Shown: positions 19,405 through 63,231 of the stretch, in pieces
Numbering within the stretch: the first letter of the stretch is position 1
Layout: every line of letters starts with the position of its first letter
Source of the DNA: Caenorhabditis elegans
Taxonomy: Eukaryota; Nematoda; Chromadorea; Rhabditida; Rhabditidae
Assembly: GCF_000002985.6 (NCBI RefSeq)
Contig: NC_003280.10
Location: 9,544,501-9,608,500, forward strand
DNA: 64,000 nt
Direction of reading: 5' to 3'
Position numbers and translations under genes: made by a program
The notes under the pieces: generated by a model
The model's input: only the letters and a program-made list of their open reading frames with translations
Database searches by the model: none
Told to the model about the DNA's origin: nothing

Positions 19405-21740
19405 TAAAATTGTACATTAAAGTAATCAAACTCTTAGTTTTTTGCGCTAATAAAGATGTCTCTGACCAAAGTTGCGGAGCCATTCAAAGGTGTCAAATTC
19501 CACTTGTAGTGATCCATTTTTCTCACTTAAAATACCTATAGTAATACAATGTCAGTGTGTCAACTTCTCGTCGCCATTCCATGTATTTCTATATATTTAT
19601 TCGCGTGTTTGTGTAACTGATCGGCATTTGCGGGGCGACGCCACATACACACATACTCCGGTGCGGCTCCTGAGTCCTTCCCTTTTTCATTCTAGATTCT
19701 CTGCGCACCCTCCAGGAATCAAACACTATTTTCGGGATCTTTTGTACCCGGGACAATGGGACAGTGCATGAATTTCATTTTTATGAATTTTACTGTTCAT
19801 GCGGGTGTATTCTTTTTGACTTGGAATTAAAGTTTTGCATGTTCTATTGAAAAATGTGAACATCTTTCCTCAACTCTGAGATTTTTCAAATTTTTTTCTG
19901 TACATAATTTCTTGCACAGTACCTTCCAATTTATATGACATTCCCAGTTTCCGGTCTATAGAATCAATGCAATGACACACCAAAAGCACACCGCCATGAA
20001 GCTTTGGTTCCATTCAATTAGGTTCTCCATTCATTGCAAAAGCTCACTTATTTCTCATGTGTCTGGTTTTCTGTTGGGAATCAATATAATTTTAACAAAT
20101 ATTTTAACAGTTGTTTTTGAATAACTGAAAGCTTCTTTTTAAGGAAAACTATGTCCAATTTTTATTTTAATCAGAGTTGGTCCATTTCAGCGGCTTAGTA
20201 GGCAAGGCTGCCTTACGTGCCCCTTTTCCGCCTTTTTGCCCTTTTCGTGCATTAACGGAGCCTCAATGTAATTGTGGACAATTCGCGCCCTTGTGTAGAT
20301 CCTAGTTAGGATATATGTACAAATCTATGCCAAAACTCACGTTTCAGCTACTAAAAACGTGCATACATGTTGTTTCAAAAGTCTTTTACTATTAAAATAA
20401 TGAGCACAACATTTCCTGTGCTTGTCCCCGATTAAATAAATGCCAGCATATTGGACCCAGCATATTGGACCCAATTTGGGTCTCACCACGAAATTTTGTA
20501 TACACCCACCCAGCACATCTTGTAGTTGAGAGTCAACATAAACAATTTCGACTCTTCGCTTCGTCTTCTAAAATATATATTAGTTCAATCAAAATTGTGC
20601 TGAGGAGTCAGCAGCCGCGGAGACACTAGACAATAGGCAGTCCAAAATTAAAAAAAATCATCTACAACTATATACATTTTAGTGCATTGGACTGTACACT
20701 TTTCCTATATGGATCATCAAATATAAGAAGCCAAAAGCCTATGTTTGAGCCTTCAAACGTTATTTTTTCTGATAAAAAAAGCTGACCTAGATAGTGAGTG
20801 ATAAAGCGATTGGTAGTGGTAGATCAGAAAACCGGTTGAATTGACCGCTTTTTTTGGAAAGAAAGATGTTTTCATTTTCTTCTTTTATCTCTTTAATGTC
20901 ACTCTTTTGTTGTCTCTGTTCCAACTGCTACTAAAGGAGGTAAAGATTCCCGGAATATTCTTACAAGTCTACCTATACCTTCAGAAGATTTTTGAATTAA
21001 AATGAGGAAATCAGATAATCCTGAAGAAGTGCCTACCTACCATGAAATCTCTTATTTGAGAATCCGTTTTGAACGTTTTTATGCATACATTTATGCACGT
21101 TGGTGTAGTTAACTCCTCAATTAGTTTTGCACCAGTTTGTTCAACTTTGGCAGCTCTTATCTCAGTTGTCGTCTGTTATATACAAAAATTGTCAACACAC
21201 TAAATATTTTTTAATTATTTTACTATCGGTTTGTAATTGGCAGATTATTGATATCTCCAATATAAACCGAGATATAGCCTTTCAAAGTGAAATAGCGGAT
21301 TGTGAGACTATTTGAAAAAATACGGCATTTTCAGTAAAGATAATTGAATAAACTGGACTTTTTAACTGATGAAATCTCCCTTAGACTTTAAAAAAAAACC
21401 ATTTCTTCTGAAACGTTCGATTTCCCTCTAATCCTAACCAATTTTTCCTTCAGTTCCATCAAGTATTTTCTTTTTTCCGTAAGTACCACACCCTCTTATT
21501 CGGTCACCACTTGTGAACAGGTTCTGTTGGTGATTTGAAAACCACTTCAAACCCACTTTTTTACCATTTCCCTATTCTCCACGTCATCGAATTATCTTGA
21601 AAACTTTACAAAAAGACACAGTTTATGGACTTTTTCAGTTTTAGTTTACTCATATTTCTTTCCTCTCTTCTTCCACCTCTTATGTCTCCCCCTCTTGTTA
21701 CTGCGAGACGTGTTTTCCGTCTCAACGTACTGGTTTTCAT
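19405..21740. other. Gene-free intergenic stretch
   Basis: No gene supported. A small tandem repeat of AGCATATTGGACCC occurs twice near 20442-20471. The region up to 21740 carries the upstream flank of the tRNA gene. Open frames around 19341-19771 have no splice or family cues. Confidence 0.55.
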
Positions 21741-21813
21741 GGCCGCGTGGCCTAATGGATAAGGCACCAGACTTCGAATCTGGGGATTGCAGGTTCGAGT
21801 CCTGCCGTGGTCG
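21741..21813 (+). tRNA. tRNA-Arg (anticodon UCG)
   Basis: A 73-nt intronless cloverleaf. The acceptor stem GGCCGCG pairs with CGTGGTC (two G-U pairs). The D arm is GGCCTAATGGATAAGGC. The anticodon arm is CCAGA-CTTCGAA-TCTGG, with anticodon TCG reading Arg CGA. The T arm is GCAGG-TTCGAGT-CCTGC and the discriminator is G. Internal A and B boxes are intact. A short TTTT at about 21819-21822 could end Pol III transcription. Confidence 0.96.
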
Positions 21814-22410
21814 AAATGTTTTGCATTTCAGCCAGCCCCAATTTTTAGCTTGAAATTGCCCAAATTTGTGTCCCACGCCAAATTGCCTTCATTGGAGAGA
21901 TGGAGAATGTTATGTTTGCCTTTTGTGTGCAGTTGTCGCCTATTCTCTTTTCCACTTTTTCTCTGTTGAAAGGGGGTGTGCGCTTTCGTGTATTGTATTG
22001 TGTTTTTTTTTCAGGCAAACACTCAGGGCATTTGCCAATTGATTTTCAATAGTTTAATTTCAAAATCTTATGTAGTAAGTCATTTCAACCATAATATATC
22101 AAAAAGAACTATAATATTTTTCCATCTAATTTCAATAATAAAAATAATTTCCGGAAAAACTACAATCAATAACCGTAAGCTTCTCAATTTTATATTTTAC
22201 AACAAGAAAATGAGTTGAACCCCGAACCTTTTTTTCTTTCTTCTACTCGTCTATATCTCTTCAGAGATTTCTGATCCTTACACTCCCGAGAGCAGTTTTT
22301 TCAGATTCGGAGGCTCTTCTAACGAAAGATGTTGTGATGTAAAATGTAAAATGCACCTGGCTCACGGGCTCACTCAATTCACACACTTTTAGTATTATTT
22401 CGATCACGTA
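21814..22410. other. Intergenic spacer between tRNA and foldback element
   Basis: Nothing recognised. It is pyrimidine-rich near 21900-22010 and AT-rich afterwards. Confidence 0.55.
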
Positions 22411-46905: not shown

Positions 46906-48354
46906 ATGGGGTCAAAAAGAGTATGCCCAGATGCAAATAATTCTGTAAAGTGTAAGTTTTAGGCCTGGGCTGAATATTAAATCTGAAAATAATACTTTTC
47001 AGCAAAAAAAGCAAAAACCCTGGATTTTCTCGCTCATCCTCGACGGAAGATTGCAATTCAGTTTTTCTATTTGGGCTGGGAGCATGATGGGCTTGTTCAA
47101 CAACCGCATACACAAAATACGGTGGAAAATGTAAGAATTCTAAAATACTTTATTTAAATAAATTAAAAATGTTTCAGCATATCATGCAGGCACTAATAAA
47201 AACTCATTTAATTGAGGACTGGACGAAATGTGATTTTTCGCGTTGTGGACGGACCGATAAAGGAGTTTCCGCATTTAAACAAACTGCTGCAATGGTTGTT
47301 AGGTTTAAAATTTTTTTACTGAACTCGTTCTCATTTCAATTTTCAGATCTCTGTGTCCCGGTGACTCAGGAGTGTTTTGGTCAGATTCTACGCAAGAGCA
47401 TCAAAAAGTGGACTATAAAGCTAGTGGAGAAGAGCTTCCCTATGTAAAAATGCTCAATGGAGTTCTTCCGAAAACCATCAGAGTCTTCGCCTGGGCTCCT
47501 GTCGCGCAAACGTTCAATGCCAGATTCGATTGTAATAGAAGAACATATAAATATTCTTTTGCTAAAGCTGACCTTAACTTAGAGGTTGGTGTATTTTCAT
47601 TATATTTTTATCTTCAAATTATTATTTATTTAGAAAATGCGTCAGGGCGCGGAGCTATTGGTCGGTGAGCACGATTTTTCGAATTTCTGCCAAATCGATA
47701 TGAACGAGAAAAGACTGCTGCAGTCTTATGTTAGAAAAGTCTATGAAGTCAAGGTAGAACAAGTATCGACTCATCCAGAAAATGGTATTGTTTATTTATT
47801 CAGAGAGTTTAGTTTTGACAAGTAAAACTTTAGATATGTATTCAATGGTGGAGCTCACTGTATCTGGAAGTGGTTTCCTTTGGCATATGATTCGATACAT
47901 AGTCACGATCCTTCAAGAAATTGGAAGAGAAAATGAACAACCATCATTAATCTCACAGCTTCTTGACCTGAAAAAATATCCGAGCCGGCCGCAGTACACC
48001 TTAGCCTCGGACACTCCTCTATGCTTATTCGATTGTGGATATAAATCTGAAGATGTTGAATGGAAAGTTCATGACTATACACTGAAAAGTACAGTGACCG
48101 GACTACAAAAAACCTGGGCGACGTATCAGGCGAGAAGTCGAATGATGGAAAATATGCTCGGAGAACTGACTGGAATGGCTGAATTCAGTTCAGGAGATGC
48201 CAATAAAGGACTTCACGAATTTGTACAAGATCGTCCGATACCTTCAAATTACATAAGGTTTGAGAATAGGAAAATGTGTGAAAGCCTGGAGAGCAAGAAA
48301 GAGAAAATGGCAGAAAAGAAGAAAAATGGAGAAGAATCTTCGGATAAACTATGA
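46906..48354 (+). CDS. tag-124: tRNA pseudouridine synthase (PUS3/DEG1 type)
   Basis: TruA-family synthase of 402 aa, closest in layout to PUS3/Deg1, which modifies tRNA positions 38/39. Exons are 46906-46951, 47003-47130, 47178-47302, 47347-47584, 47634-47784 and 47834-48354. The catalytic motif is CGRTDKGVSA, with the nucleophile Asp at about residue 85. Supporting blocks are RVFAWAPV, FNARFDCNRRTYKY, GEHDFSNFCQ and SGSGFLWHMIRYIV. The C-terminal ~100 residues are charged and Lys/Glu-rich (KKEKMAEKKKNGEE). First gene of the plus operon. Confidence 0.95.
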
Positions 48355-48546
48355 GAGTTTAATTGTTTTTTAAGTTATTAATACGGTTTTGTTGTTGATT
48401 TTTTTGTTTTTAAAAATATATGTTTCTGTTTTTTGATCAATTTTTTCCTTTTTGTTTGATTTATTGGTTTCTGAAATCCAAATTTATTTCTGAAAATTGT
48501 AAGAAGTTGTCTTTATAATCGAATTTCCATTTCCAGCTAGACAGAA

Positions 48547-50394
48547 ATGTCTATAATCAACGACGAAAATGGAAGAGGCTATAAAGTACATCTTTGCAAG
48601 ACGAATATTGCACAGAACAACAATAAATTTTACGATATGGAATTGTTGGATGAGGGAGGTGATTTCATTGTGAAGCTTATCAATGGACGTATTGGATATC
48701 GTGGTGTCACACAATTAAAAGATTTCGATGACCTCGACAGAGCCAAGAAGTTCTTCGAAAGCAAATTCTACGAGAAAACTCATCTTCATTGGGAAGAAAG
48801 AGACGATGAACCGGTTCCCAATAAATATGCAGTCGTTGAGTTGGCTACTAACGCAAGACAGACTGAAAAAGAAGTTAAAAAGGAGGAACCGGAACCTGAG
48901 CCGAAAGTTGATGAGAAAAATACACGTGGAAGGAAGAAAAGAGGAATTGTTAAAGAAAAGAAAGAAATCAAGAAAGAAGAGGAACCAGTTGAAGAAGTTA
49001 ATGAAAAGCTGAAGGAATTGATGAAATGCATCTGCGACGAAGATGTTCATCTGGGACTCTTGAAACAACTGAAATTTAACGAAGCTTTTGGAAGACCAAT
49101 TGGTGAGTTTTAAAAAATCGTATTAAAAAATTAGAGAAAAATTCAGATTGCCTCTCACTTGCCCAACTCACCACTGGATATGAAATTTTGAGTAAGATTG
49201 AGGAATCGATTGGAGGAAAATCAGGTATTTTATGAAATTTTGTAAATTTGAAGTTTTAAGTTGAAAAATCTAAATTTAGGCCATTATCTTCCCTGAAAAA
49301 TGGAAATTCTTTTAGCTCGAAGATCTACTCGTGGCCGGCCACGAGTAGCTGACCGTGTTCTTGCTGTTAAATCCGATGGTCCATCTCTTCACGACATCAA
49401 CAAATATTATTCTCTCATCCCTCATTCATTTGGTTTCTGTGTTCCTCCAAAAATTGATTCTCATGCTAAAATTCAAGCTGAACGAGAGCTTCTGGATGCA
49501 CTGAAAGGATCAATTGAAGCATCACTGGAACTGAAGGATTTGAAAAAGACAGCATCGTCGAAGGATATTTATCAAAGACTTTATGAGCGCCTCCCGTGCC
49601 ATTTGGAGCCAGTTTCGGAAGAAATTGCAGGAAAAATTGGAGACTGCTTGGCTATGCGTGGACCCACTCATTGTTACAAGCTTTCACTCATTGATGCATT
49701 CGAGTTAAAGGATCCAAATGAAATTCCAACTGAAGCTCCAGTTGAAGTTCAGGAAGTTCCGAAGAAGAGAGGACGAAAGAGCACAAAGACCGCTGCTCCA
49801 ACTGTTCCACCACCAACTACAAAACGCCTTCTTTGGCACGGTACTCGTGTGACAAATGTCTTCTCAATCCTCATGAATGGACTTCAGTTCCCAGTTGGAG
49901 ATCGCTGTGGTCTGATGTTCGGAAATGGAGTTTATTTCGCAAATGTTCCAACTAAATCCGCGAATTACTGTTGCCCAGAGGCTTCAAAGAGAGTTTTCAT
50001 GCTTCTTTGCGAGGTGAGAAATCCACTGAAAATTTCACAATTTTCAATTTTTTCTATTTCAGGTTGAAACTGCGAACCCATTAGTTCTCTACGAGTCAGA
50101 AATTGACGCGGATGAGAAAATGGAAAAAGCGAAAAAGACGTCGGTTTATGCAGCTGGAAAGCACACTCCAAGAGACACTGTTGAAATGTAAATTCTGATT
50201 TTTTTCAAAAAATTCTTATCCATGAAATTTTCAGCAATGGAATCCCGGCATTCAAGTCAAATCTTGAGACAATCGAAGAAGAAACTCGTCTTCTCTACGA
50301 TGAATATGTGATGTTCAACAAGGAACACTTCAAAATAAAATATGTTGTCGAAGTGAAAGTGGATCGTCTTACCGCTAAGGAAATGATGGCTTAA
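48547..50394 (+). CDS. parp-2: Poly(ADP-ribose) polymerase 2 (PARP-2/PME-2)
   Basis: DNA-damage-responsive nuclear poly(ADP-ribose) polymerase of 538 aa, also known as pme-2. Exons are 48547-49102, 49147-49224, 49316-50013, 50063-50187 and 50235-50394. Order: WGR domain (about 10-95), a charged Glu/Lys linker, regulatory helical domain (about 155-285, beginning NEKLKELMKCICD) and catalytic ART domain. The H-Y-E triad is visible as LLWHGTR, VYFANVPTKSANY and DEYVMFN. Two differences stand out: the name-giving Trp of the WGR motif is Asn here (NGRIGYRG, residue 46), and a basic insert with RGRPR and KKRGRKS, resembling AT-hooks, lies in the regulatory and catalytic parts. No zinc fingers, as expected for PARP2 rather than PARP1. 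Confidence 0.96.
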
Positions 50395-50726
50395 ATGCTA
50401 ATTTCTCATGTAATCTCTCACATTTTATCTGTTTCTACCTCTCCATTTAATTTTCTGATCTGAATTTGTCAAGCTTTTGTAACTTTTTTTAAACCTGTTA
50501 ATCCAATGATACTCCTCATTTTTTTAAAATCACATTCCTGGAATTTGTTTTTGCTCAAAATCTCATCTTTTTCGGTTTCACTTCATTCATTTTCTGCTCA
50601 TATCAAAAAACAAATGTATTTTTGAAGCAATTTAAATTTTTCTCTAAAATTCTGAAGGTGTTGCTAATCCTTTTTATATTTTTTGAAGCTGATTTTCACA
50701 AGCTTAATCAAAACGATTTTCAGAAA

Positions 50727-52027
50727 ATGTCCAGAAGAAAATTGAGAGCAGTGGAATACGATCGTGACTATATTAATTTCGATGGTAGTATTTCAGAAAT
50801 TGTTCTACAATAATTAACCAAATTCCAGACGATAATGAGATTCGCCGTCTAATCGTCACTGTCGAAGAAGCCCATCTGAAGTGTCGTGATCAAAATTGGT
50901 CTGCTCAGATGCTTGACGAGCAGGATGTAGCTAAATGGACTGTGGAGCTTGAAAAATATTTTACCGAGTTTGGTGCACCGTCTGGATGCTCCAGAGCGGC
51001 GGCGATTGACTATGTCTTGAACGCTGCTGTTCAAAAGATTTATGAACAGAAAGGTTTGCAAAATTAGGTGATACGTTTAAATACACGATATCTGTATTTC
51101 CAGGCGGTGACACTGAACTCTGCTCGAGTCGGCTCAGAGAACAAGCTGAAAAAGTGCTCGAAGCACATCGAGATTCCCAAAATCCACTTAACCGACTTGA
51201 TTGTGAGTCATAAATTCCTTTTTAAAAAATAAAATTTAATTATTCTCATTCTTAGATTCTTCACCAAATTTTGCTGAAAATGCACGTGCTCTGTGCTCAA
51301 TTCTCGGCATTTCTGCTCATCACCCCGATCCAAAAGTTCTAATGAAAGCTGCTTGTTTGTATATTGCTGAAAATTTGGGAGATGATGTGATTGCTGAAGA
51401 GACTGAAGAAGTATTGAAAAATAAGGTAACCGAGATTTTTTTCGAATGGTTTTTTAAAAATAAAATTTCTTTCAGAAAACTCTAAATATCAACGCGTTTC
51501 CAATTGGAATGCAAGCTCCAAAGAATGGAGCCGTACATTTTTCGGCTCGTCTTCTTCGTCTCATTTGTTTACGACAATTGCGAGTGGTCTCCAGAATGGT
51601 TAGTAAAATTTTTCAAAAATGTATTTTTATTAAGTGTTCTTTGGGAGGAAACCATATTTTCAAAAATCGAATGTGATTGATGTATGGCGGTGTCTAGCTG
51701 AAGCCTTTGAAGTTTTGAATTTTAAAAATATAAATGATGTTACTAAATTTTGAAAAAAATTCAAATTCAAGATAGTTGCTCTTTGCTCCCTACAAGAACA
51801 AATGATCATTCATATTTTACTTTTCTGTACGCTTATCAAAGGCATCCATGACAACCATAGATATGTGGCTCCGCCCCGGTCAACCCCTTTCCGACGGGCT
51901 CAGTCGCATATTTCAATTGTTTTCACTTACATGTTTTCAGATCAACGAAACTCTTGTGGAAATTCAAAACTTGACGATGGACATGTCAAAGCGAGCTGAC
52001 TTGAAGCAGGTTCAATACGGAAGATAA
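50727..52027 (+). CDS. RTRAF (hCLE/CGI-99) homolog
   Basis: Protein of 253 aa matching the RTRAF/hCLE family in length and block order. In animals this is a subunit of the RTCB-DDX1 tRNA-ligase complex that shuttles RNA between nucleus and cytoplasm. Exons are 50727-50784, 50829-51053, 51104-51202, 51256-51425, 51476-51598 and 51941-52027. Family-like features are the N-terminal SRRKLRAVEYD, the middle NWSAQMLDEQDVAKW and AAIDYVLNAAV, a central helix repeat (NARALCSILGI), LGMQAP-type linker text (FPIGMQAP) and a C-terminal coiled segment with LRQLRV and INETLVEIQ. The protein ends QVQYGR. The last intron (342 nt) is long for this cluster. Third gene of the operon. The assignment comes from recall of the family. 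Confidence 0.85.
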
Positions 52028-52183
52028 ATAAAATCTTTAATTTTGTTTTTTTTTTCGGGTCTCTGTAGCACGCTGTAAATTTATTAAAATATTAATTTAA
52101 TCTTAAAATTGTTTTCCTCCAGTTCTTGCTGTTTTACTCACAGCTTATCATATTTCACCACTCTCCTGTTTTCCAGATAAAAA

Positions 52184-52889
52184 ATGAATGAGTTTATCAG
52201 CATGGCAACACCGGAAACTCGTCGACGACCGAATATCCTGGTGACTGGATCACCCGGAACTGGAAAATCAACGCTCGGACAACAAGTTGCTGAGAAGCTT
52301 GGATTTGTATTTATTGAGGTGAAATTTTGAAATTTTAAGTAGTTAAAGATCCTATAATTCTTCCAGGTCAGCAAAGAAGTTCGAGAAAACAATTTGCAAG
52401 GAGATTTCGATGAGCAATACAACTGCCACGTTCTCGACGAGGATAAGCTTTTGGATCACATTTCAGATCGTTTGGACAGTGATGAAGGTGGTATCGTTGT
52501 CGATTATCACGGATGTGACCTTTTTCCAGAAAGGCGAGTTTCGAGGGTTCTACAGGAGTTTAATTGTTCGTGATTTCAGATGGTTCGACGTGGTCGTAGT
52601 TCTTCGATGCCCCACAGAAAAACTGTATGATCGTCTACAATCTCGTGGATATTCTGAATTCAAGATTAAAGAAAATGTAGAATGCGAGATTTTTGGAACT
52701 CTCTTGGAAGAAGCCAGAGAGTCGTATAGGTTGGTGTTTTCTTATTTACAGAAATTCAACAAAAATTATTTCAGTGAAGACATCGTCCATGAACTTCAAT
52801 CAGAAACAACTGAACAAATGGAGGAAAACTTGGAAAGAATCTGCGAACTTGCCGGAGAGTTCAAAAATGAGCACACCATGGAGCAGTGA
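52184..52889 (+). CDS. Adenylate kinase isoenzyme 6 (hCINAP/Fap7) homolog
   Basis: Nuclear adenylate kinase/ATPase of the hCINAP/Fap7 type, which helps small ribosomal subunit maturation. Exons are 52184-52318, 52367-52533, 52580-52729 and 52775-52889, giving 188 aa. An in-frame second Met at 52202 would give 182 aa and may be the real start. The P-loop is GSPGTGKST. The NMP-binding part includes FIEVSKEVRENN, and the conserved CDLFPERWFDVVVVLR block confirms the exon 2-3 junction. The LID is short, as in this family (SRGYSEFKIKENVECEIF). The intron at 52534-52579 begins with GC (AAG|GCGAGT) rather than GT. The family Cys-Glu-Ile-Phe segment and all phases are intact. Confidence 0.94.
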
Positions 52890-53974: not shown

Positions 53975-56900
53975 TCAGATATTGAACAGAAGTTCCTGGG
54001 AAAGTGGATCGAATGGTGTGATTTTGAATAGACGCATCACCTGGAAATTTATATTACATTATTCTTTAATTTTCAAGAAATATATCTACATATTTCAATT
54101 GATATCTTTTTTTTTTGAATTTGATGAAAATTTGAAAAATCCGCGCCTCGCTTTAAAGAAGGCGGGCACTTTTTTTCCGGAAAATTGGTACATTTCTCAT
54201 TGTTTCAAGGCTAACTTTCTATACATGTTTTTACTGAAACATAATATTTTCTAAATTCATCGAAAACTCACTTGATAAGCCTCCAACATTGATGATGCCG
54301 CCGATGAAACTCCGGACAGCATCAGAACTAAATTCCCGAACCTTTCTGCATAGTTTTGCAGTCCAACACTTTCATAATAAGCGAATAATGCTGACACAAC
54401 TTTATTACGGAAAGTTAGCACAATGCGACGAGAAGCTTCGGTGATTTCAGAGTAATCTGGAAGAATTATTTTCAACTTTCTAGAAAATGTCTTGGAAATC
54501 TCACCAGAAGAGCATCCACAATTGAAGAGCACAATAATCTTGATGACAACAATCTCCTGTGGGCTCAATTTGAGATTTCTCAGTGGAGTGGCCACTTCAT
54601 CGATGCAACAATCAGTCATTTGTTTGTACAGCTTCTCTTGACGCCATCGACGATCAGCGGAGACGGAAATCTGAAAGAAAGGCAACTTATAAACTGGGGG
54701 AGATCCTTGTTAAAGGTATTTAATTTTCAGAATAATAATTGCATTAGTCACTAACTTTACATCCTTCCTCTAACTTCTCGACATTTCTCGGCATACAAGT
54801 TCCATTTGTGATGAGCCATACGTCATCAATATTTGCCTGTGCTGTGTAATAGCCATGCTCCAGAATCAAACAATGAACAGCAAATCGTTTAAGAATAACT
54901 GATCTATCTTGTACTGGTAAACTAGCAAAAACTGGCAGAGTTCTGGTCCATTCCAACATCATCAAAAGTTCGGATTGTGTGGATACAGAGATATCGGTTC
55001 CAAGCATCACCATCATTTTATGATCTCCTCCGTTTGGGGATGTTCCTCCTGGGACGTATCGAGATGTTGATGGTCCTGATGTGTCGGTAATCTGGAAATA
55101 TTAAAGTTCATACAACATACAATATACAGAGTGCTTGAAAAAGCTTTTTAGAAAATCCTCACACTCATGCATCCCTGCTTTGCCAGCACTGCGAGATCAA
55201 CTGCTGCTTGTCTAGAGGCGACCACTTCCAGTTTCTTTTTTCTATAATATTTTTTTAATGTAACTTGAGTAAAAAAAAAATTACAAAAACCTACCGTAAC
55301 CTATCATCAATAGTCGTGAGATTTTCCAAAAGTGTCAAATACTGTGACTTATCCTCGACTTGTGGTCTTGGAGGTGTTGGTGTGGATGTTGAGCAGCTTG
55401 GGCGGGAACGGATACGACGGCATCCGATGAGATCTCGACGGGGTTGAAGGGCTGGAATTAGGATGTTAATATGAAAAATCGTCAACGGTCTTGTTAAAAC
55501 ACTTTTGGAGTAATTTTACAGATCTCTAAAATAGTAAAAGTAAACCAAAAAATTTCAGATCTACTTTTTTCCTTCAAACAAAAAAAATCGAAAATTCTTA
55601 CCTTCCTTGCTCATTCCACTTTCTAAGCACTTCCTATATCGACAAGCTCTGCAAGCTTTTCTTGCCATTGTAGTGACGTCACATGGCTTTTCCCGTTTGC
55701 ACTCTGTATCCTGACGCTGGACAACTGCTCTGGAATATGTTGAGGTTATTGATGAGTTTTTTTGAACCTAGGGATCTTGTACCTTCGAAAAAACGTTTTG
55801 CATCCAAGGCACGCCACGATTCCATAATGTTTTCCAGTTGAAGGTTCTCCACATATTAAACATTGGCCAATTACACCTGAAATGTTTTTGGATATTTAGA
55901 TTGAATTTTAAATATTTCGGTTTCAAATAAGAACTCATTATTCATACATTTCACTTTTTTGGGTGATCTATGCTCAAAAACAGTAAACTTTTACTATCAG
56001 TTGTTGGAAGCAACTGTGTGCTTGAGCACATGGTTTCACTGATTTTATTGATAAACATTTTTGCTGAAACTGGCAAAAATAGTGAAAGCGGAAAGCAAAA
56101 GTTATAGAGTTGGGGATCAAAAAATTTTGATTACTGTAACTTGGCATTTGCTAGAAATTTTCGAACTCTTCTCTAGTGAGATCTTCTAGCATCTAGACCT
56201 GCAAACTGGCAAAATAAAAATTACAATATTTGGATTCGATATTTTTCGGTAAACTTAAATATGAGGTTTTTTGAAATGTTGCAATTTTTTAACAAAAGAA
56301 TCTCACCCTTTTCCGGCTTCACACTTGGCATTTGTGGTGCAATTGCGGCTATACTCGGTACACTTATCACTGATGTGAATGTGGGCATTTTTTGAAATGC
56401 CGTAGACATTGACTGGCGAGGCGCCGTTATTTCTGGAAATTTTGGAATTATAGAAAGAGTTTAGACAAAGTTGTTTCAAAATTGACGATATAACTTAACA
56501 GTTGAAAATTTCTAATAGAATTTCTAGTGTTATCCGAGGTTTCGGATATATGCTTAAATTTATAAAACAAGTATATTTATATCAAACAATTCAAATCTGA
56601 TATTCTAACCAGGATGTCCAAAATCAACGGATTACTTTATGGTAACAAGGATGGGAAAATGTTCAATTATCAGCGGTCACGAGGCGAGTGAAATGAAACG
56701 ACGTCGTTGATGAAAGGAGGAGGACGGAAAAAGATACAAAATGAAATGAATGATAGATAGTGAATTGAGAGAGAGATTCCAAGAAACAGAGAAATATCAT
56801 CGTGACAATCTCTGATACACATACACACACGCACGCCACAAACACGTTGGACGAAGGACGTACGGGAAGACGATAGGCGTGCGATGGCCGAGAGAGAGGT

Positions 56901-59900
56901 AAGCAAAAAATTAAATTGGAAAAATTACTGGAAGTATGGGAAAAATTCATCTGGTAGAGAACCATGATATTTTCAGACCAAGAAGTTTAGACTCAACTGT
57001 GAATGTTTCATGCCTATTTAGCACGCCTAACTCGCCTCAAAGGCATCCTACAACCGCTGTTTTGTGTATTTTAATTGACTTTAGTAATCATATTCATACC
57101 AATAAATGGGACGTTGTTTTAGACATTTTACGGTTACCGTGTAGGCGAGAAGTAAAGTATTTTATGCCTAATTGGAGGTCAGGATTCTGATCAAATCCTG
57201 TTAAACTCCCCCGATCACTCTACCTGAAAAATTTTTGCAACTACCACCACTAACACAAAATGTGATAATGTGTTTTGAAAATGTTGTTGAGAAGAAGTAG
57301 AAAATAGAAAAAAGTGTGTTGTCACGTGTGTGTGGTTCTCGCAGCAGGAAGGTTAGTTGACACCACCATCACCACGAGGAAGATCTTTGGGGTCTCTCAT
57401 GAGTGATCGGTGGAGATGGAATTGGGAGAAGCAATTTGAGGGAAAGTCAAATGAAAACATTTTTATTTTTGATTTACAGATAAGAAGACACTTTGAATAT
57501 GATTGTTGTAATTGATAAAGCTTCAGTAATTCAGGTTTGTTTTTTTTTCAACTAGTCTTAAGACGGAAGTTCAAAACTGTAGTTGAGTTTACTGGAAGGG
57601 AAACTGGAATATTATAGACGTTGACACAAAACCGCTTACCTGCCTACCTATAAGGCCTGAGTTCTGAATGGTGACCTATTGCATGTGAAGTTGGTCTACA
57701 TTGTACAAACGACAATACCGAAGCTAACCCTACAATGTTGGATGTAGGCGGTAGGTAGGCACTTAGGCAGGCAGGCTTGGTGACACTACTATTCCAAATG
57801 GAAGCTTTAGAGGATCATAGTAAAAAATAAATAAAGTCATTTATAATATGAAAAATGGAACCTGGGCATTATACATAAATTGAAATTCAGAGTTATATTA
57901 TTTTATGAAGGCAGGGCTAATTTTAATATTTTTTTTTTAATTTTAATATTTTCCATTCCAATTGTGTGAGATAGGATGCACTTAAATTGAGAACTAAAAT
58001 TTACCACCAATTTTCAATTTTTAGTAAATTTTTGGTGAGGTGAAGGATACGTTTAAAACTACATTCTCTTTTACTTGGAAAATGCCTATTTTGCAAAGCA
58101 GTCAGGAATAATTATCTCTCATTGGGATTTGAACAAAGTTTTAATTATTTTGCCAGACACCTAATCTCAAAGTTAAAACCGTGTTTCATGTTTTCTTGGT
58201 CAAAACGAGGACATCTCAGTCTTTTCTGTAAAATACCGCAAAAATGACATCACGAGGTCAGAGATTATGAAAGAGAAAAGTAATTGAGCGGGGGAAAGGG
58301 AATGAAACAAAAAGTTAACAAATATATATGACACCGAATTTCAGTTTTCAAGTTGCATTCCAGAAATTCATTGTTTATGGCAGATGCAACTTTTTTAAAA
58401 ATTTCAAAAAATATATTGTTTGAATTTTTGTTATGTTTGAATACCAACTACCTTCGAAGCAAAAAGAAAGACAGAAAAACAACATTTTCCGTGTTAAGGT
58501 AAAAGGGCACAAGTTTGTATCTTTGTAGTCCGCAAATTGTACTATGAAATGCCGAAAACGTGTTCAATTTTTAAAGCAGGAAGCAATCACTCTTCAAAGT
58601 TTATCTAGGTTCCCACGACCAAAAAGATCTGGTAAAAAATTATTGGCATCTGGTTTATTTTATAGTTTGAACTTTTGTTTCAATCAGAAAAAAACGGGGA
58701 AATGCTGTAACTCTATGTATAATTTCAAAGTACACAGTGGACTTCCAAATTTTTTTAATTATATATTGCAGGTTGCAAAAAGGTGTTTTTTCTTTACAAA
58801 ACTCACACGAGATAAAGAGTATTTTTTAACAAAAAGCTTTTTCAACCTTAAAAAAATATTAGAAAAAAAACAATAAATTTCCACGAACCCCCACATTAAA
58901 CAAAAAATTCAAAAAAAAAGTAAAATTGCACACGGGAATTGACATCAATCTCTGGTGTATTGTGTTGCTAGAGTTGCATCGCCATGGGGTAGAAAACGCA
59001 AAAAATGGAGGAGCGAATGGAAAGTAAGAGAGGAAGAGAGAAAGCACGCGCTTTCTATCTCACTCTCTGCGTTTCTCTTATTCCCCGTCACTATTTCATT
59101 TTTGAGAGAAAAGACAGTGTACTTGGAGTTGTAGGGCACTTGGTGACACATACGCAGACGACTAAAGGAAATAAACACATTGATATCACGTGGGGTTGAA
59201 GATCAGTCAACGTTTTTTATGAGGACGAATATTTACAACCTTACATGGATTTTGGCGGTTTTCGACCGCTTGTAAATTACGAATTTCACAATTTTTGGGA
59301 ACCGTTTTAGAGGGTTTTTATAGAAAATAGCATTTGAAAACAAAGTTGAAACTGAAGTTATATATGTTTTGTTTGTACCAATTTTGTATAAATTACAATT
59401 TTTGTAAAGTCTCGGAGCGCTTTCCAATATTTTTGTAGGAACCAAAACTGATGGAAATAGTCTAGTTTGTTCCGAATCACATTTCACTGCAAGTGGTTTG
59501 AATATCAAGAAATCAACGCAAACGAGGCTCAAAAATCTGCAAACCACCTCTATCCTTGTAGAATTTTATTTGTCGCTACACCGTTCTCCAAAAAAATTTG
59601 AACGAGGTATTTACGGTATTGAAATTTGTAGTTTCGCTGGAATTGAATTTTACAATTTATCAATTTTAATTTTCCCCCGGTTTCACATTTTATCGCCTCA
59701 TCACTTTATCATCCTAATAACCAAAGAACCGCCCATCTTCACTCTCAACTATTCGTGAGCTTTGGTTCTTCCTTGTGTCCCACCTCCCTCCTCACCAGCC
59801 AGCAACTTTAAATACACAACACAAAATATGACAGAGATCACTATGTATTACCATACGAAACCAAAAAACGTGTTCTTCGCATTGGTGTTTGGGCAGAAAA

Positions 59901-60742
59901 TGGAGATTATGGCTTGATGCGGTCTTGTCCCCGATTCTCAAGAATTCTCCTTACAATCGGAATACTAACTAGACTATGGTTCGGTAAAAAAAGAATCTGG
60001 TAATTTTCAAATATCTCTATCCGCGATCTTGAGAAAAACCATAAATAGAATATTTCCACAGAAGACCAGTCACACTTTTTTCATGAACACCAGGTTTTCT
60101 GAAAACATTAAAAATCATATAAAATGATAGAATGCCATGATAGAACATTACGAAAATTGCTGGAGTTTTGAAAACATGTCTGCCAAAATTTTGGCAAGTT
60201 GTCAAATTCTTGAATTCTGAATGAATCTACTTACATTAATTCAGAGCACAAAATTTAAAATATTACTGACTCAAAAGTCATCAAGCTTTCACTATTATCA
60301 GTTACAAGAAAAGGGAAAAGTGTGCTTGAGCACATGGTTTTTTTGGTTTTGATGATAAATAACTTGGGTTTGAAGCGGGAAAAATGGAAAGTTTGAATGT
60401 GTTTGTAGTTAGATTGGTCAGATTACGGTACTAGCAGTATATTTTTTTCATTGCAACATGGCCTCAAAAAGGAATCAAATTGGCAATCAGCAGCAACTTT
60501 TCAGTCAACTCAATTTATTTTAAAGTGTCAATTGGAAAAGTTGCCAATATTGGCAAAAAAGGTACAGAATATAAAGAAAAAGACACAAACAACGGTGCGA
60601 AATGCTTTAAACGACGCGGGAAATCATTGAAAATGGAAAACTCACCACTTTCCAGTTTTGGAAACTGTGATGTAGCTGCTCCAAAATTGGCAATATTGAG
60701 ACCTGCCAGAAAAGTTGGCATTGTTTGAAATACAGTAGTCAT
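53975..60742 (-). CDS. nhr-19: Nuclear hormone receptor NHR-19, two alternative first exons
   Basis: Nuclear receptor with C4 zinc-finger DNA-binding domain and ligand-binding-type domain. Shared minus-strand exons are 55876-55783, 55729-55602, 55451-55295, 55241-55163, 55091-54756, 54670-54505, 54456-54272 and 54040-53975. Either first coding exon, 60742-60646 or 56409-56307, joins in phase 1, giving 435 or 437 aa. The DBD has [17 protein letters not shown] (P-box Cys-Leu-Gly-Cys-Lys, diverged from the common CEGCKG) and C-x5-C-x9-C-x2-C in finger two. The hinge is Pro/Ser-rich. The last exon encodes [21 protein letters not shown], an amphipathic end without a classic AF-2. A 48-nt intron (54504-54457) is in frame, so a 16-residue longer form is possible. 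The gene runs opposite to the operon and ends 366 bp past mrpl-53. Confidence 0.94.
56017..56030. promoter_or_regulatory. Intronic palindrome, copy near internal exon
   Basis: TGTGCTTGAGCACA, a palindrome with a two-base centre, followed by TGGTTT. It is the same string as at 60321-60334. It lies 277 nt into the intron after the internal alternative exon of nhr-19. Confidence 0.7.
56307..56432 (-). other. nhr-19: nhr-19 internal alternative first exon
   Basis: Begins after acceptor TTTCCAG (56433-56435) with ATG at 56409-56407, and encodes [14 protein letters not shown]... up to PEKG at a GTGAGA donor (phase 1). It is similar in start, length and phase to the exon at 60742-60646. The frame is also open upstream of the ATG to the acceptor. 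Confidence 0.8.
57610..57790. repeat. Inverted repeat with CTGCCTACCT / AGGTAGGCA arms
   Basis: Within the long nhr-19 intron. ACCGCTTACCTGCCTACCTA (about 57629) is mirrored by TAGGCGGTAGGTAGGCA (about 57745), with further GGCAGGCAGG. It is the same GTAGGC-rich family as at 8.9 and 10.2 kb. Confidence 0.65.
60321..60334. promoter_or_regulatory. Intronic palindrome, copy near distal exon
   Basis: TGTGCTTGAGCACA followed by TGGTTT, identical to the copy at 56017-56030. It lies 312 nt into the intron after the distal first exon of nhr-19. Confidence 0.7.
60646..60742 (-). other. nhr-19: nhr-19 distal alternative first exon
   Basis: Follows acceptor TTTTCCAG and ATAATA, starts [14 protein letters not shown] and ends at KLESG with donor GTGAG in phase 1. 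It resembles the internal exon (M-T/S-T-x-F-Q-x-MPTF), so one arose from the other. Splicing 4.8 kb to the DNA-binding domain skips the internal exon. Confidence 0.85.
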
Positions 60743-63231
60743 TATTATCTGGAAAATGTTTTCAAGAAATTGGGTGAAGCATCTGGATGAAAAGGCGTTA
60801 GAGCAACAAAAAAAGACAATTTCAGGAAAAAGCTAACAATTCTAAACAGAGCATAATTGTTTCCAACTCCAGTTTCTAGGTTTTCCATATACATTTACTT
60901 CATCAACTAGAGCCTAGTAACCACACATTTCTCCTCAATCAAGTGTTTCATTGAATTTTTCACATCAAAACTCACAACTTCCCACGTTGTCGTACGTAAC
61001 TCAACTCAAGGTAAACACGCGTGGTTAAGGCAAACAAACAATTGTAATGAAGGGAGGAGATTGAGAGACAAAATTGATCTTTACCCGCCAAACAAAAAGA
61101 TACACTTATGTGTGTACTTTGGCACTCGACAAAATTCCATTCTATGTGAGGGGATCAATGTTTGCAACACAAAGGCCCGGTTGGACACCTCTCCTTATTG
61201 CATACCGCTACATTACTTTGAAAGGTTTTAACTCGGTTTATTTTGAATATACCAAAAAATGATCAACTGTAAAACAATAGAAAAATAAATAACAAATGTT
61301 TTGCCAGTTGACAACTTTTGGATAACTTAAACGACGGCTGAGATATTAGTTGTCAAAGTTGAACACCACTAGTAAAATAATTACGGTAAAGTGACACCAC
61401 ATTTCTTCTATACAATATTTTTAAATTTTTTGTTGTTGCACAATCAGATTAGCATTTCTATCTGATCAAACATTTCTAGCAACCTCTTTATTCTTAAATT
61501 TTACTTTATAATTTTATTTCGGTCTGCCCAAATGTCTGTATGCCTATTGCAAGAAAAAATATCGCAACAGCTACAAACAACGTGTTCTCATCTCCAAATG
61601 TGTTATCGTCATGATCTATAAGTAGAATACGATGGAGGATAATCAATCTTTTTAGCAAAAAAAAGAAAACTCTCCGCGTGACTATGAACCGATTGAACCA
61701 TTTATCTTGCAATCCATCTTCGCTACACTTATCAATTGATATCTGTTGGAATAAGAAACTGATGGTGACAATAAAAATTTCAAATTTCTAGAGGCAGGGA
61801 TTAGAGGAACAATTTTTTAATTTTTAAGGAGCTAGTTGTAAGCGAAATTGGCTTTATGAGAACTTGTCTTTTTTTAATGAAAAATGCCTCAATTTGTCGA
61901 AAACTTTGACTCAAGCAAGTTTTCTGTGCTATTTTTTAGGTTATTGAACAATTGGAAATACTGCAATATTTTCAGTTAATAAAGGCTCTAGCAGTACTTT
62001 TAAAAAGCGACGAAACAAGAATTCTAGACGATAACAGAAAAAAAAACTGGAAAGAACTACTACCACGAGAATTCTCCACGAGTGTTATCTATTTTCAGAA
62101 CATTTCGAAATGCAGTCTGCCAATCCCGCCTCCCGATTCAAAATTCTGTCACGTGTGTTTACAGAACGATTATTTACGGAAAAAGCGAGTAAAAACAAGG
62201 TTAGGTGTACTAATCCTCCTGAAAAAACCCACCAAAAAACTGAAAGTTGCAAAATGTATTCTAATTCTCGCAGTCTCTCTAGCTATTTTCAGTGGTTACG
62301 TGCAATTTTGCAATCTTTTTTTCGTTTGTTGTTGGGTTCCACTGTTCTTTTATTCTCTCGTTTTCTTCAGTTTTCAGCTTTTTTTGTGTTGTTTCTTTTT
62401 TTCAAAATGTGTGCTGACCACGTGACGTTGTTGGACATGAGGATTCTATAGACAAAGAACAAAAACAGTACGCACGAATGTAGGCGCACGATGAGTGTAG
62501 GCCGCCTTTCATTTTGCGCCTGACAATGCAAAAAGTAAGATTGAGCTCATTTTTAATTTAAATTCTTTCAGCATATCTTTTTTAAAATTGGGAAAATTAT
62601 GGAATACCTCATAATTGGAGGGACTTTTAACTGATACAAATATGTGGCTCTTTAATTAATTTGAATGTTTTTTATTTTATTTTAGTACTGAGTAATCTCC
62701 TCAAATTATACTCGAAAACTTGATGAAATTTCAAATTGCTCTCATAAAACATTCTGTAACAAAACATGAAAATCAGAATGGTCAGTTCTGCACCAGCTCC
62801 ACTCGATCAGTTATCTGTTTTTGATAAGCGGGTCAAGTTTTTGTGGCATCAAAGAAGCATCACAGATTATTGTTAAGACAACAGGAGAGAACTAGGCAAA
62901 GAAGAAAAAGTTAAAGGGTTTCAAGAAAACAAATAATTACTGAAAAATTTTTTGATTTGATTTGCCGAAAGTATTTGCAGCGGTAGTGTGTGTTGAATAC
63001 TGTGTATTTTTGTACAGTTTAGAACAAGTTTTGGATTTTATAAGCATTTATTGATTTTGATGAAAATAATAATGTAAAAAATATTGGCACACTACAATTA
63101 AATTTAGAACTCGGTTTTTTTCAATTACCAAAACCGTAACTTATTAGATCACTAGGCTGAAAAACAAAACAAATTAAGTTTACAGAGATCAATAAAACAA
63201 AATGAATTTTAAAAAATAAATAAAGAAATTC
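60743..63231. other. Intergenic region upstream of nhr-19
   Basis: Promoter side of nhr-19 and 3' side of the poly(A) polymerase gene. Overlapping open frames at 61952-62451 (plus) are long but have no family cue, and their Phe-rich ends fit T-rich DNA. A GC-richer patch with GTAGGCGCACGATG and GTAGGCCGCC lies at about 62479-62510. No RNA gene seen. Confidence 0.55.

Follow-up and report, generated by a model that had tools for sequence, protein, structure and literature searches.

The 64,000-nt window of Caenorhabditis elegans DNA analyzed here (contig NC_003280.10, positions 9,544,501 to 9,608,500, renumbered from 1) encodes on its minus strand, at 54257-60742, a nuclear receptor gene that we take to be nhr-19 (E02H1.7). 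Analysis of the gene's sequence points to a real and old internal duplication, in which the first coding exon was copied together with an intronic element that appears to be constrained. The unusual feature of this arrangement is that both copies of the element lie within one gene. The location of the gene was derived from open frames and from the domain matches of the joined exons. The upstream first exon (exon A) joined to the zinc-finger exons matches the zf-C4 family (PF00105, E 1.7e-25), and downstream open frames match the hormone-receptor ligand-binding domain (PF00104, E 5.9e-13 and 8.8e-08); the gene class given in a preliminary description of this DNA was thus confirmed by both domains. 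The names E02H1.7 and nhr-19 are paired in an excerpt of PMC3086827, and loss of nhr-19 is reported, in the portion available of Lemieux et al. (PMC10760639), to block a steroid effect on learning. In the accessible extracts of the literature naming nhr-19, E02H1.7 or the isoforms, no treatment of the first exons was found.

The gene has two candidate starting exons, both on the minus strand. Exon A (60646-60742) is a first coding exon of 97 nt with the donor GTGAGT, and exon B (56307-56409) is an alternative first coding exon of 103 nt with the donor GTGAGA. Both leave in phase 1 from a GTGAG donor and join in frame to the same exon (55783-55876), which starts at 55876 and opens the C4 zinc-finger domain, as seen from its frame and from the PF00105 match. 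Their N-terminal ends follow the common pattern M-[T/S]-T-x-F-Q-x-M-P-T-F, and the similarity between the two exons was reached by none of 2000 codon shuffles. The preliminary description had stated that the exons share their start pattern, splice phase and length; the first two held, whereas the lengths differ (97 versus 103 nt). Each exon is also preceded by a TTTCCAG 3′ splice site, which in exon A is part of TTTTCCAG, 6 nt ahead of the ATG. Measured from its own 3′ splice site, exon B spans 126 nt (56307-56432), a multiple of three without stop codons and in frame after exon A, so that a transcript containing A, B and the shared exon reads through. Exon B may therefore be usable as an in-frame cassette after exon A, and a tandem A + B transcript is possible, which would encode a longer receptor isoform carrying the two N-terminal pieces one after the other. 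Since one third of such exons would keep the frame by chance, this property is not evidence of use; the presence of an in-frame 3′ splice site nevertheless means that the mutual exclusivity of exons A and B is not established from sequence.

To compare the two parts of the gene, the region 63999-59000 was aligned by blastn with the region 58999-55877. The best match was not the pair of exons but a pair of intronic blocks, with 69.6% identity over 115 columns (E 3e-10). Block A (60270-60384, minus strand) follows exon A, and block B (55973-56078, minus strand) follows exon B, its core lying 140 nt before the shared exon. The exons gave the second match (112 columns, 61.6% identity, E 1e-4), and the third reached only E 0.018. 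Block and exon pairs are collinear, their order being kept in both gene regions. As these are the top two matches, they argue for exon and block having been copied together, with only those parts still recognisable. Local alignment of intron A (its first 746 nt) with intron B (430 nt) scored 40.0, above the maximum of 30.5 obtained in 1000 shuffles, while the same alignment with the core masked fell to the shuffle mean (reached by 512 of 1000 shuffles). When the alignment was anchored on the core, however, the similarity of the flanks became apparent, the upstream flank score being reached by 0 of 300 shuffles and the downstream one by 3 of 300. The earlier view of a 20-base match within otherwise diverged introns was thus correct for the sequence outside the blocks, but the similarity is wider than the core and covers about 115 nt. 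The collinear matches and the flank alignment together support the proposal that the first exon was duplicated along with a downstream intronic element. Within the window, a profile search brought up no further copy of note; its best other match (E 0.19) was the opposite strand of block B itself.

At the center of each block lies an identical word. The sequence TGTGCTTGAGCACATGGTTT occurs at 56017-56036 and 60321-60340 (plus-strand coordinates), and these were the only two sites found in the 64 kb with up to three mismatches; 100 shuffles gave none. The exact 20-mer of the preliminary description was thus recovered in both introns, and the true identity extends to 21 nt, at 60320-60340 in block A and 56016-56036 in block B, both read on the minus strand. 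The distances proposed earlier were also found, the palindrome starting 312 and 277 nt past the donors of exons A and B; the shared word comes as close to them as 306 and 271 nt. Among 1500 random pairs of 746- and 430-bp stretches drawn from the window, the longest common word was 17 nt and none reached 21. The 14-base center, TGTGCT-CA-AGCACA, had been described as self-complementary; this applies to 12 of its 14 positions, in both copies, but the central two bases do not pair. Inverted repeats with arms of at least 6 and spacers of at most 4 were found in 450 of 21,327 sampled window 21-mers (2.1%), or 38 when restricted to 21-mers with at least 10 G or C, so that palindromy alone is weak evidence. 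The near-palindrome is accordingly taken as suggestive of a dimer site, not as strong evidence for one. Outside the window, prokaryote genome contigs (257 Gb) gave one exact core match, in Roseibium hamelinense, which is taken as chance because, with both strands counted, a collection of that size should contain a given 20-mer about 0.5 times. Viral contigs contained no core match, and a protein search of viral contigs for relatives of the receptor returned 8 stretches fitting by pattern, none of which was confirmed. Full-text literature searched with the core strings yielded no title on nematode gene regulation among the matches listed.

The age of the duplication was judged from the exons themselves. 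Eight of the first 11 codons keep their amino acid between exons A and B; six of these eight can vary silently, and four of the six do. This silent divergence makes the duplication look old, with unconstrained sites widely diverged. Set against it, the intact 21-mer suggests purifying selection, in line with the preliminary description; the failure of all 1500 random pairs to share a word of that length points the same way.

The blocks also share sequences resembling binding sites for GATA factors. Core A is flanked by TGATAA on the plus strand (60353-60358) and, on its other side, by ACTGATAA on the minus strand (60295-60300); core B is flanked by TGATAA on the plus strand (56049-56054) and by ACTGATAG on the minus strand (55994-55999). 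TGATAR sites thus stand on both sides of both cores in opposite orientation, and their place and orientation agree between the copies. Sites on both sides within 45 bp were found at 187 of 53,225 AT-rich positions, and in opposite orientation at 113 (0.21%), a background count that includes positions inside both blocks. The motif ACTGATAAGG corresponds to the published ELT-2 motif, as given in the accessible part of PMC2814864. Worm conserved non-coding elements (wCNEs) provide a second point of reference. According to the text available of Vavouri et al. 2007 (PMC1852409), 624 of 2,084 wCNEs are intronic, 70% of the alternatively spliced genes with intronic wCNEs have an alternative first exon, 78% of such elements lie upstream of it, and intronic wCNEs are argued to be mostly enhancers rather than splicing signals.

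Based on these features, we consider it probable, with considerable room for doubt, that the blocks are two copies of a transcriptional control element through which GATA factors would act on two first exons. The preliminary description had offered RNA pairing and a transcription-factor site for two promoters as alternatives; a predicted protein-binding site appears to be the better fit, given the flanking GATA-type sites and the published link between intronic elements and alternative first exons (PMC1852409). In this model, an old duplication would have copied the first coding exon and several hundred bases of the following intron. The copied intron would then have drifted mostly past recognition, leaving the block of about 115 nt in both places. 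Each block would consist of a central 21-bp site between two oppositely oriented GATA-factor sites, and the central site, being near-palindromic, would probably be bound by a dimeric DNA-binding protein. With a copy roughly 0.4 kb past each start codon, the blocks could deliver a shared input to two alternative promoters. A candidate internal promoter of exon B is the CpG-rich and GC-rich stretch at 56701-56900, which has 14 CpG (observed/expected 1.49) and a GC content of 0.45, above 96% of 200-nt windows, and lies about 300-490 nt upstream of the exon B ATG. That a nuclear receptor dimer binds the core is only a guess: worm receptor motifs are diverse and include the group G(A/T)CACA (Narasimhan 2015, PMC4434323, in the part available), and the AGCACA carried by the core on both strands resembles this motif but does not match it.

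Several points weigh against such a control element. No known factor was matched to the core, and the TGATAR test was post hoc, the motif having been picked after the sites were seen. The 200 nt ahead of the two ATGs have no clear similarity (their score was reached by 72 of 1000 shuffles), so that a shared promoter sequence is not seen. Block A is upstream of exon B, a position that fits a role for this exon, but block B is downstream of both first exons. Finally, a small recent gene conversion could also yield an exact 21-mer.

Such a conversion belongs to a set of neutral explanations, which also includes a stretch of the duplicated intron preserved by chance and the insertion of one small repeat at both places. 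The observed pattern is exactly what a short conversion tract would leave, and the comparison rests on two copies; however, similarity tapers off gradually to either side of the core, blocks and duplicated exons follow the same order, and the window holds no other standout copy (best E 0.19, on the opposite strand of block B), which makes a neutral origin quite improbable in our estimation. A different possibility lies at the RNA level. Pairing of the cores in transcripts that start at the upstream promoter could loop out exon B together with its splice sites and draw donor A towards the shared acceptor, while transcripts from the inner promoter, without core A, would use exon B. The predicted core-core duplex has 12 pairs and −18.0 kcal/mol, compared with −5.3 for a single hairpin; the cores enclose exon B, which has a usable in-frame 3′ splice site, so its skipping may need enforcing; and duplicated introns with stem-loops have been proposed to create competing structures at exclusive exons (Ivanov and Pervouchine, PMC6071210, available in part). 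The complementarity between the introns does not, however, stand out from the background: among 95,064 sampled 24-nt intron-intron pairs the best core pair (−19.5) ranked only 11th, ten binding at least as well with a best of −21.5 overall, and 30 reached −18. The global duplex energy of the introns told nothing, being reached by 65 of 200 shuffles. The cores are moreover 4.3 kb apart. Pairing would require neither the conservation of the flanking blocks nor the 7 bases that the identical 21-mer has beyond its palindrome, and identical cores mean that compensating changes cannot be sought. The earlier suggestion that the RNA copies pair and sway exon choice thus stands as regards the possible duplex, but not as an exceptional one, and we judge the looping model unlikely. 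We give a similarly low chance to a first-exon switch in which either a dimeric factor, perhaps the encoded receptor or a sister receptor, bridges sites A and B and lets one promoter act on the other, or the RNA copies pair to remove exon B from long transcripts; on this view the cores would be kept identical by the need for joint recognition. An RNA-binding protein could alternatively read the core in the pre-mRNA past each first exon and regulate the donor or the shared acceptor. The cores lie on the same strand at similar distances from the donors (306 and 271 nt), and the shared bases continue past the palindrome, as would be expected of a site read in single-stranded form. They are nevertheless far from the donors, core A is about 4.4 kb from the shared acceptor, and the flanking GATA-type sites are left unexplained, so that we also view this explanation as unlikely.

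Two further explanations would place a product at the blocks themselves. A structured RNA could arise from the plus strand, antisense to the gene, as a hairpin of about 65 nt is predicted at both copies on that strand only. The plus-strand z-scores were −4.90 (A) and −2.04 (B), only 0.3% (A) and 0.8% (B) of GC-matched windows were as stable, and the consensus contained 17 pairs, 3 of them changed on both sides, compared with a 5-pair core and no such change on the minus strand. With the core fixed and 60-nt flanks shuffled, p was 0.012 (A) and 0.015 (B), but flanks of 20, 25, 30 and 40 nt gave 0.039, 0.110, 0.046 and 0.063 for A and 0.100, 0.055, 0.114 and 0.084 for B. In the same test the minus strand was unremarkable at A and gave p 0.004 at 60 nt for B. 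Once the core was fixed, modeling thus gave weak support for an extended hairpin, which we do not take as a sign of its absence. Of 3232 random AT-rich sites into which the core was placed, 13.3% equaled the stability of A and 6.8% that of B. The consensus comes from two sequences only, and the terminal hairpin is conserved rather than the stem, unlike in a microRNA. No Rfam model matched the blocks when the window was searched at gathering scores, nor when the limit was relaxed to E 10 for 55000-61500, where the sub-threshold matches do not overlap them; tRNA was the only window match at gathering scores. An antisense RNA is therefore, in our view, very unlikely. Less probable still is that the core begins a small extra coding exon, with AAACC-ATG and an open frame in both copies. 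Twenty-six codons are open from the ATG in each (55958-56036 and 60263-60340), a GT occurs at homologous places in the phase 1 that the shared exon needs, the residues past the core are more alike than in shuffles (p 0.015), and this frame scores highest of the six (73; next 69). Such open stretches are common in this intron, however: 26 codons stay open after 19 of 67 intronic ATGs, and 24% of 78-nt and 5.5% of 165-nt stretches are open too. The other-strand frame scores nearly as high (69 versus 73), the GT sites, preceded by ATA and continuing as GTGAAA or GTAAAA, are weak, and no acceptor-like site was found before copy A. The third codon positions of the core are also unchanged, whereas the silent sites of the real exons diverged.

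The putative control element can be compared with several known systems. Duplicated conserved non-coding elements, reportedly described by McEwen et al. in 2006, are control elements kept after duplication beside paralogous genes. They resemble the present case in that an element was copied with the gene part it served and then kept, but the nhr-19 copies lie in one gene, beside two first exons. The wCNEs (PMC1852409, in the part available) are likewise short, and the features shared here are AT-rich surroundings, an intron of a transcription-factor gene and a candidate alternative first exon; they are, however, defined by identity between C. elegans and C. briggsae, whereas the evidence in nhr-19 is a second copy in the same gene. 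Docking and selector pairing of the Dscam type, as presented in the extract of PMC6071210, similarly combines duplicated exons with duplicated and potentially pairing intronic words. Here, in contrast, the palindrome would pair one copy with the other instead of a selector with a docking site, the exons concerned are first exons, and the pairing strength is not exceptional. Finally, C. elegans transcription-factor genes with alternative promoters (PMC3685541) share with this gene two starting exons joined to a common DNA-binding domain; in the accessible portion of that source, nhr-19 was not found by name and no similarity between starting exons is described. If the blocks are conserved and active, they would offer a compact natural test of what follows from the internal duplication of a promoter-proximal element along with a first exon. 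The sites could be removed singly or jointly, and the effects on promoter choice and on splicing could be read separately. The gene would also present a predicted protein-binding site kept exact while nearby silent sites diverged.

Sites for UNC-3 (COE) were considered as well and rejected: none occurred in the gene region with up to one mismatch to the consensus, and the 6 window matches at this threshold, fewer than the shuffle mean of 8.57, all lie below 44.3 kb. In the available part of Li et al. (PMC7529460), an nhr-19 reporter is described as not unc-3 dependent, and an nhr-19 fragment from +1,261 to +2,294 bp drives neuronal reporter expression. Counted from the exon A ATG, which we assumed as the reference point, this fragment corresponds to 59482-58449, in intron 1 and outside both blocks; on that count, intron 1 holds enhancers. 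A GA/CT-rich hairpin at 59005-59085, also in intron 1, falls within the neuron-active segment on the same count. Its minimum free energy is −30.3 on the plus strand and −26.3 on the minus strand, which places it among the most stable 75-nt windows of the 64 kb, and it gave weak, sub-threshold matches to microRNA families.

Elsewhere in the window, open frames of plus-strand neighbors at 47758-52889 match tRNA pseudouridine synthase, poly(ADP-ribose) polymerase and an AAA-type kinase-like domain, and a tRNA-Arg gene with the anticodon TCG lies on the plus strand at 21740-21814.

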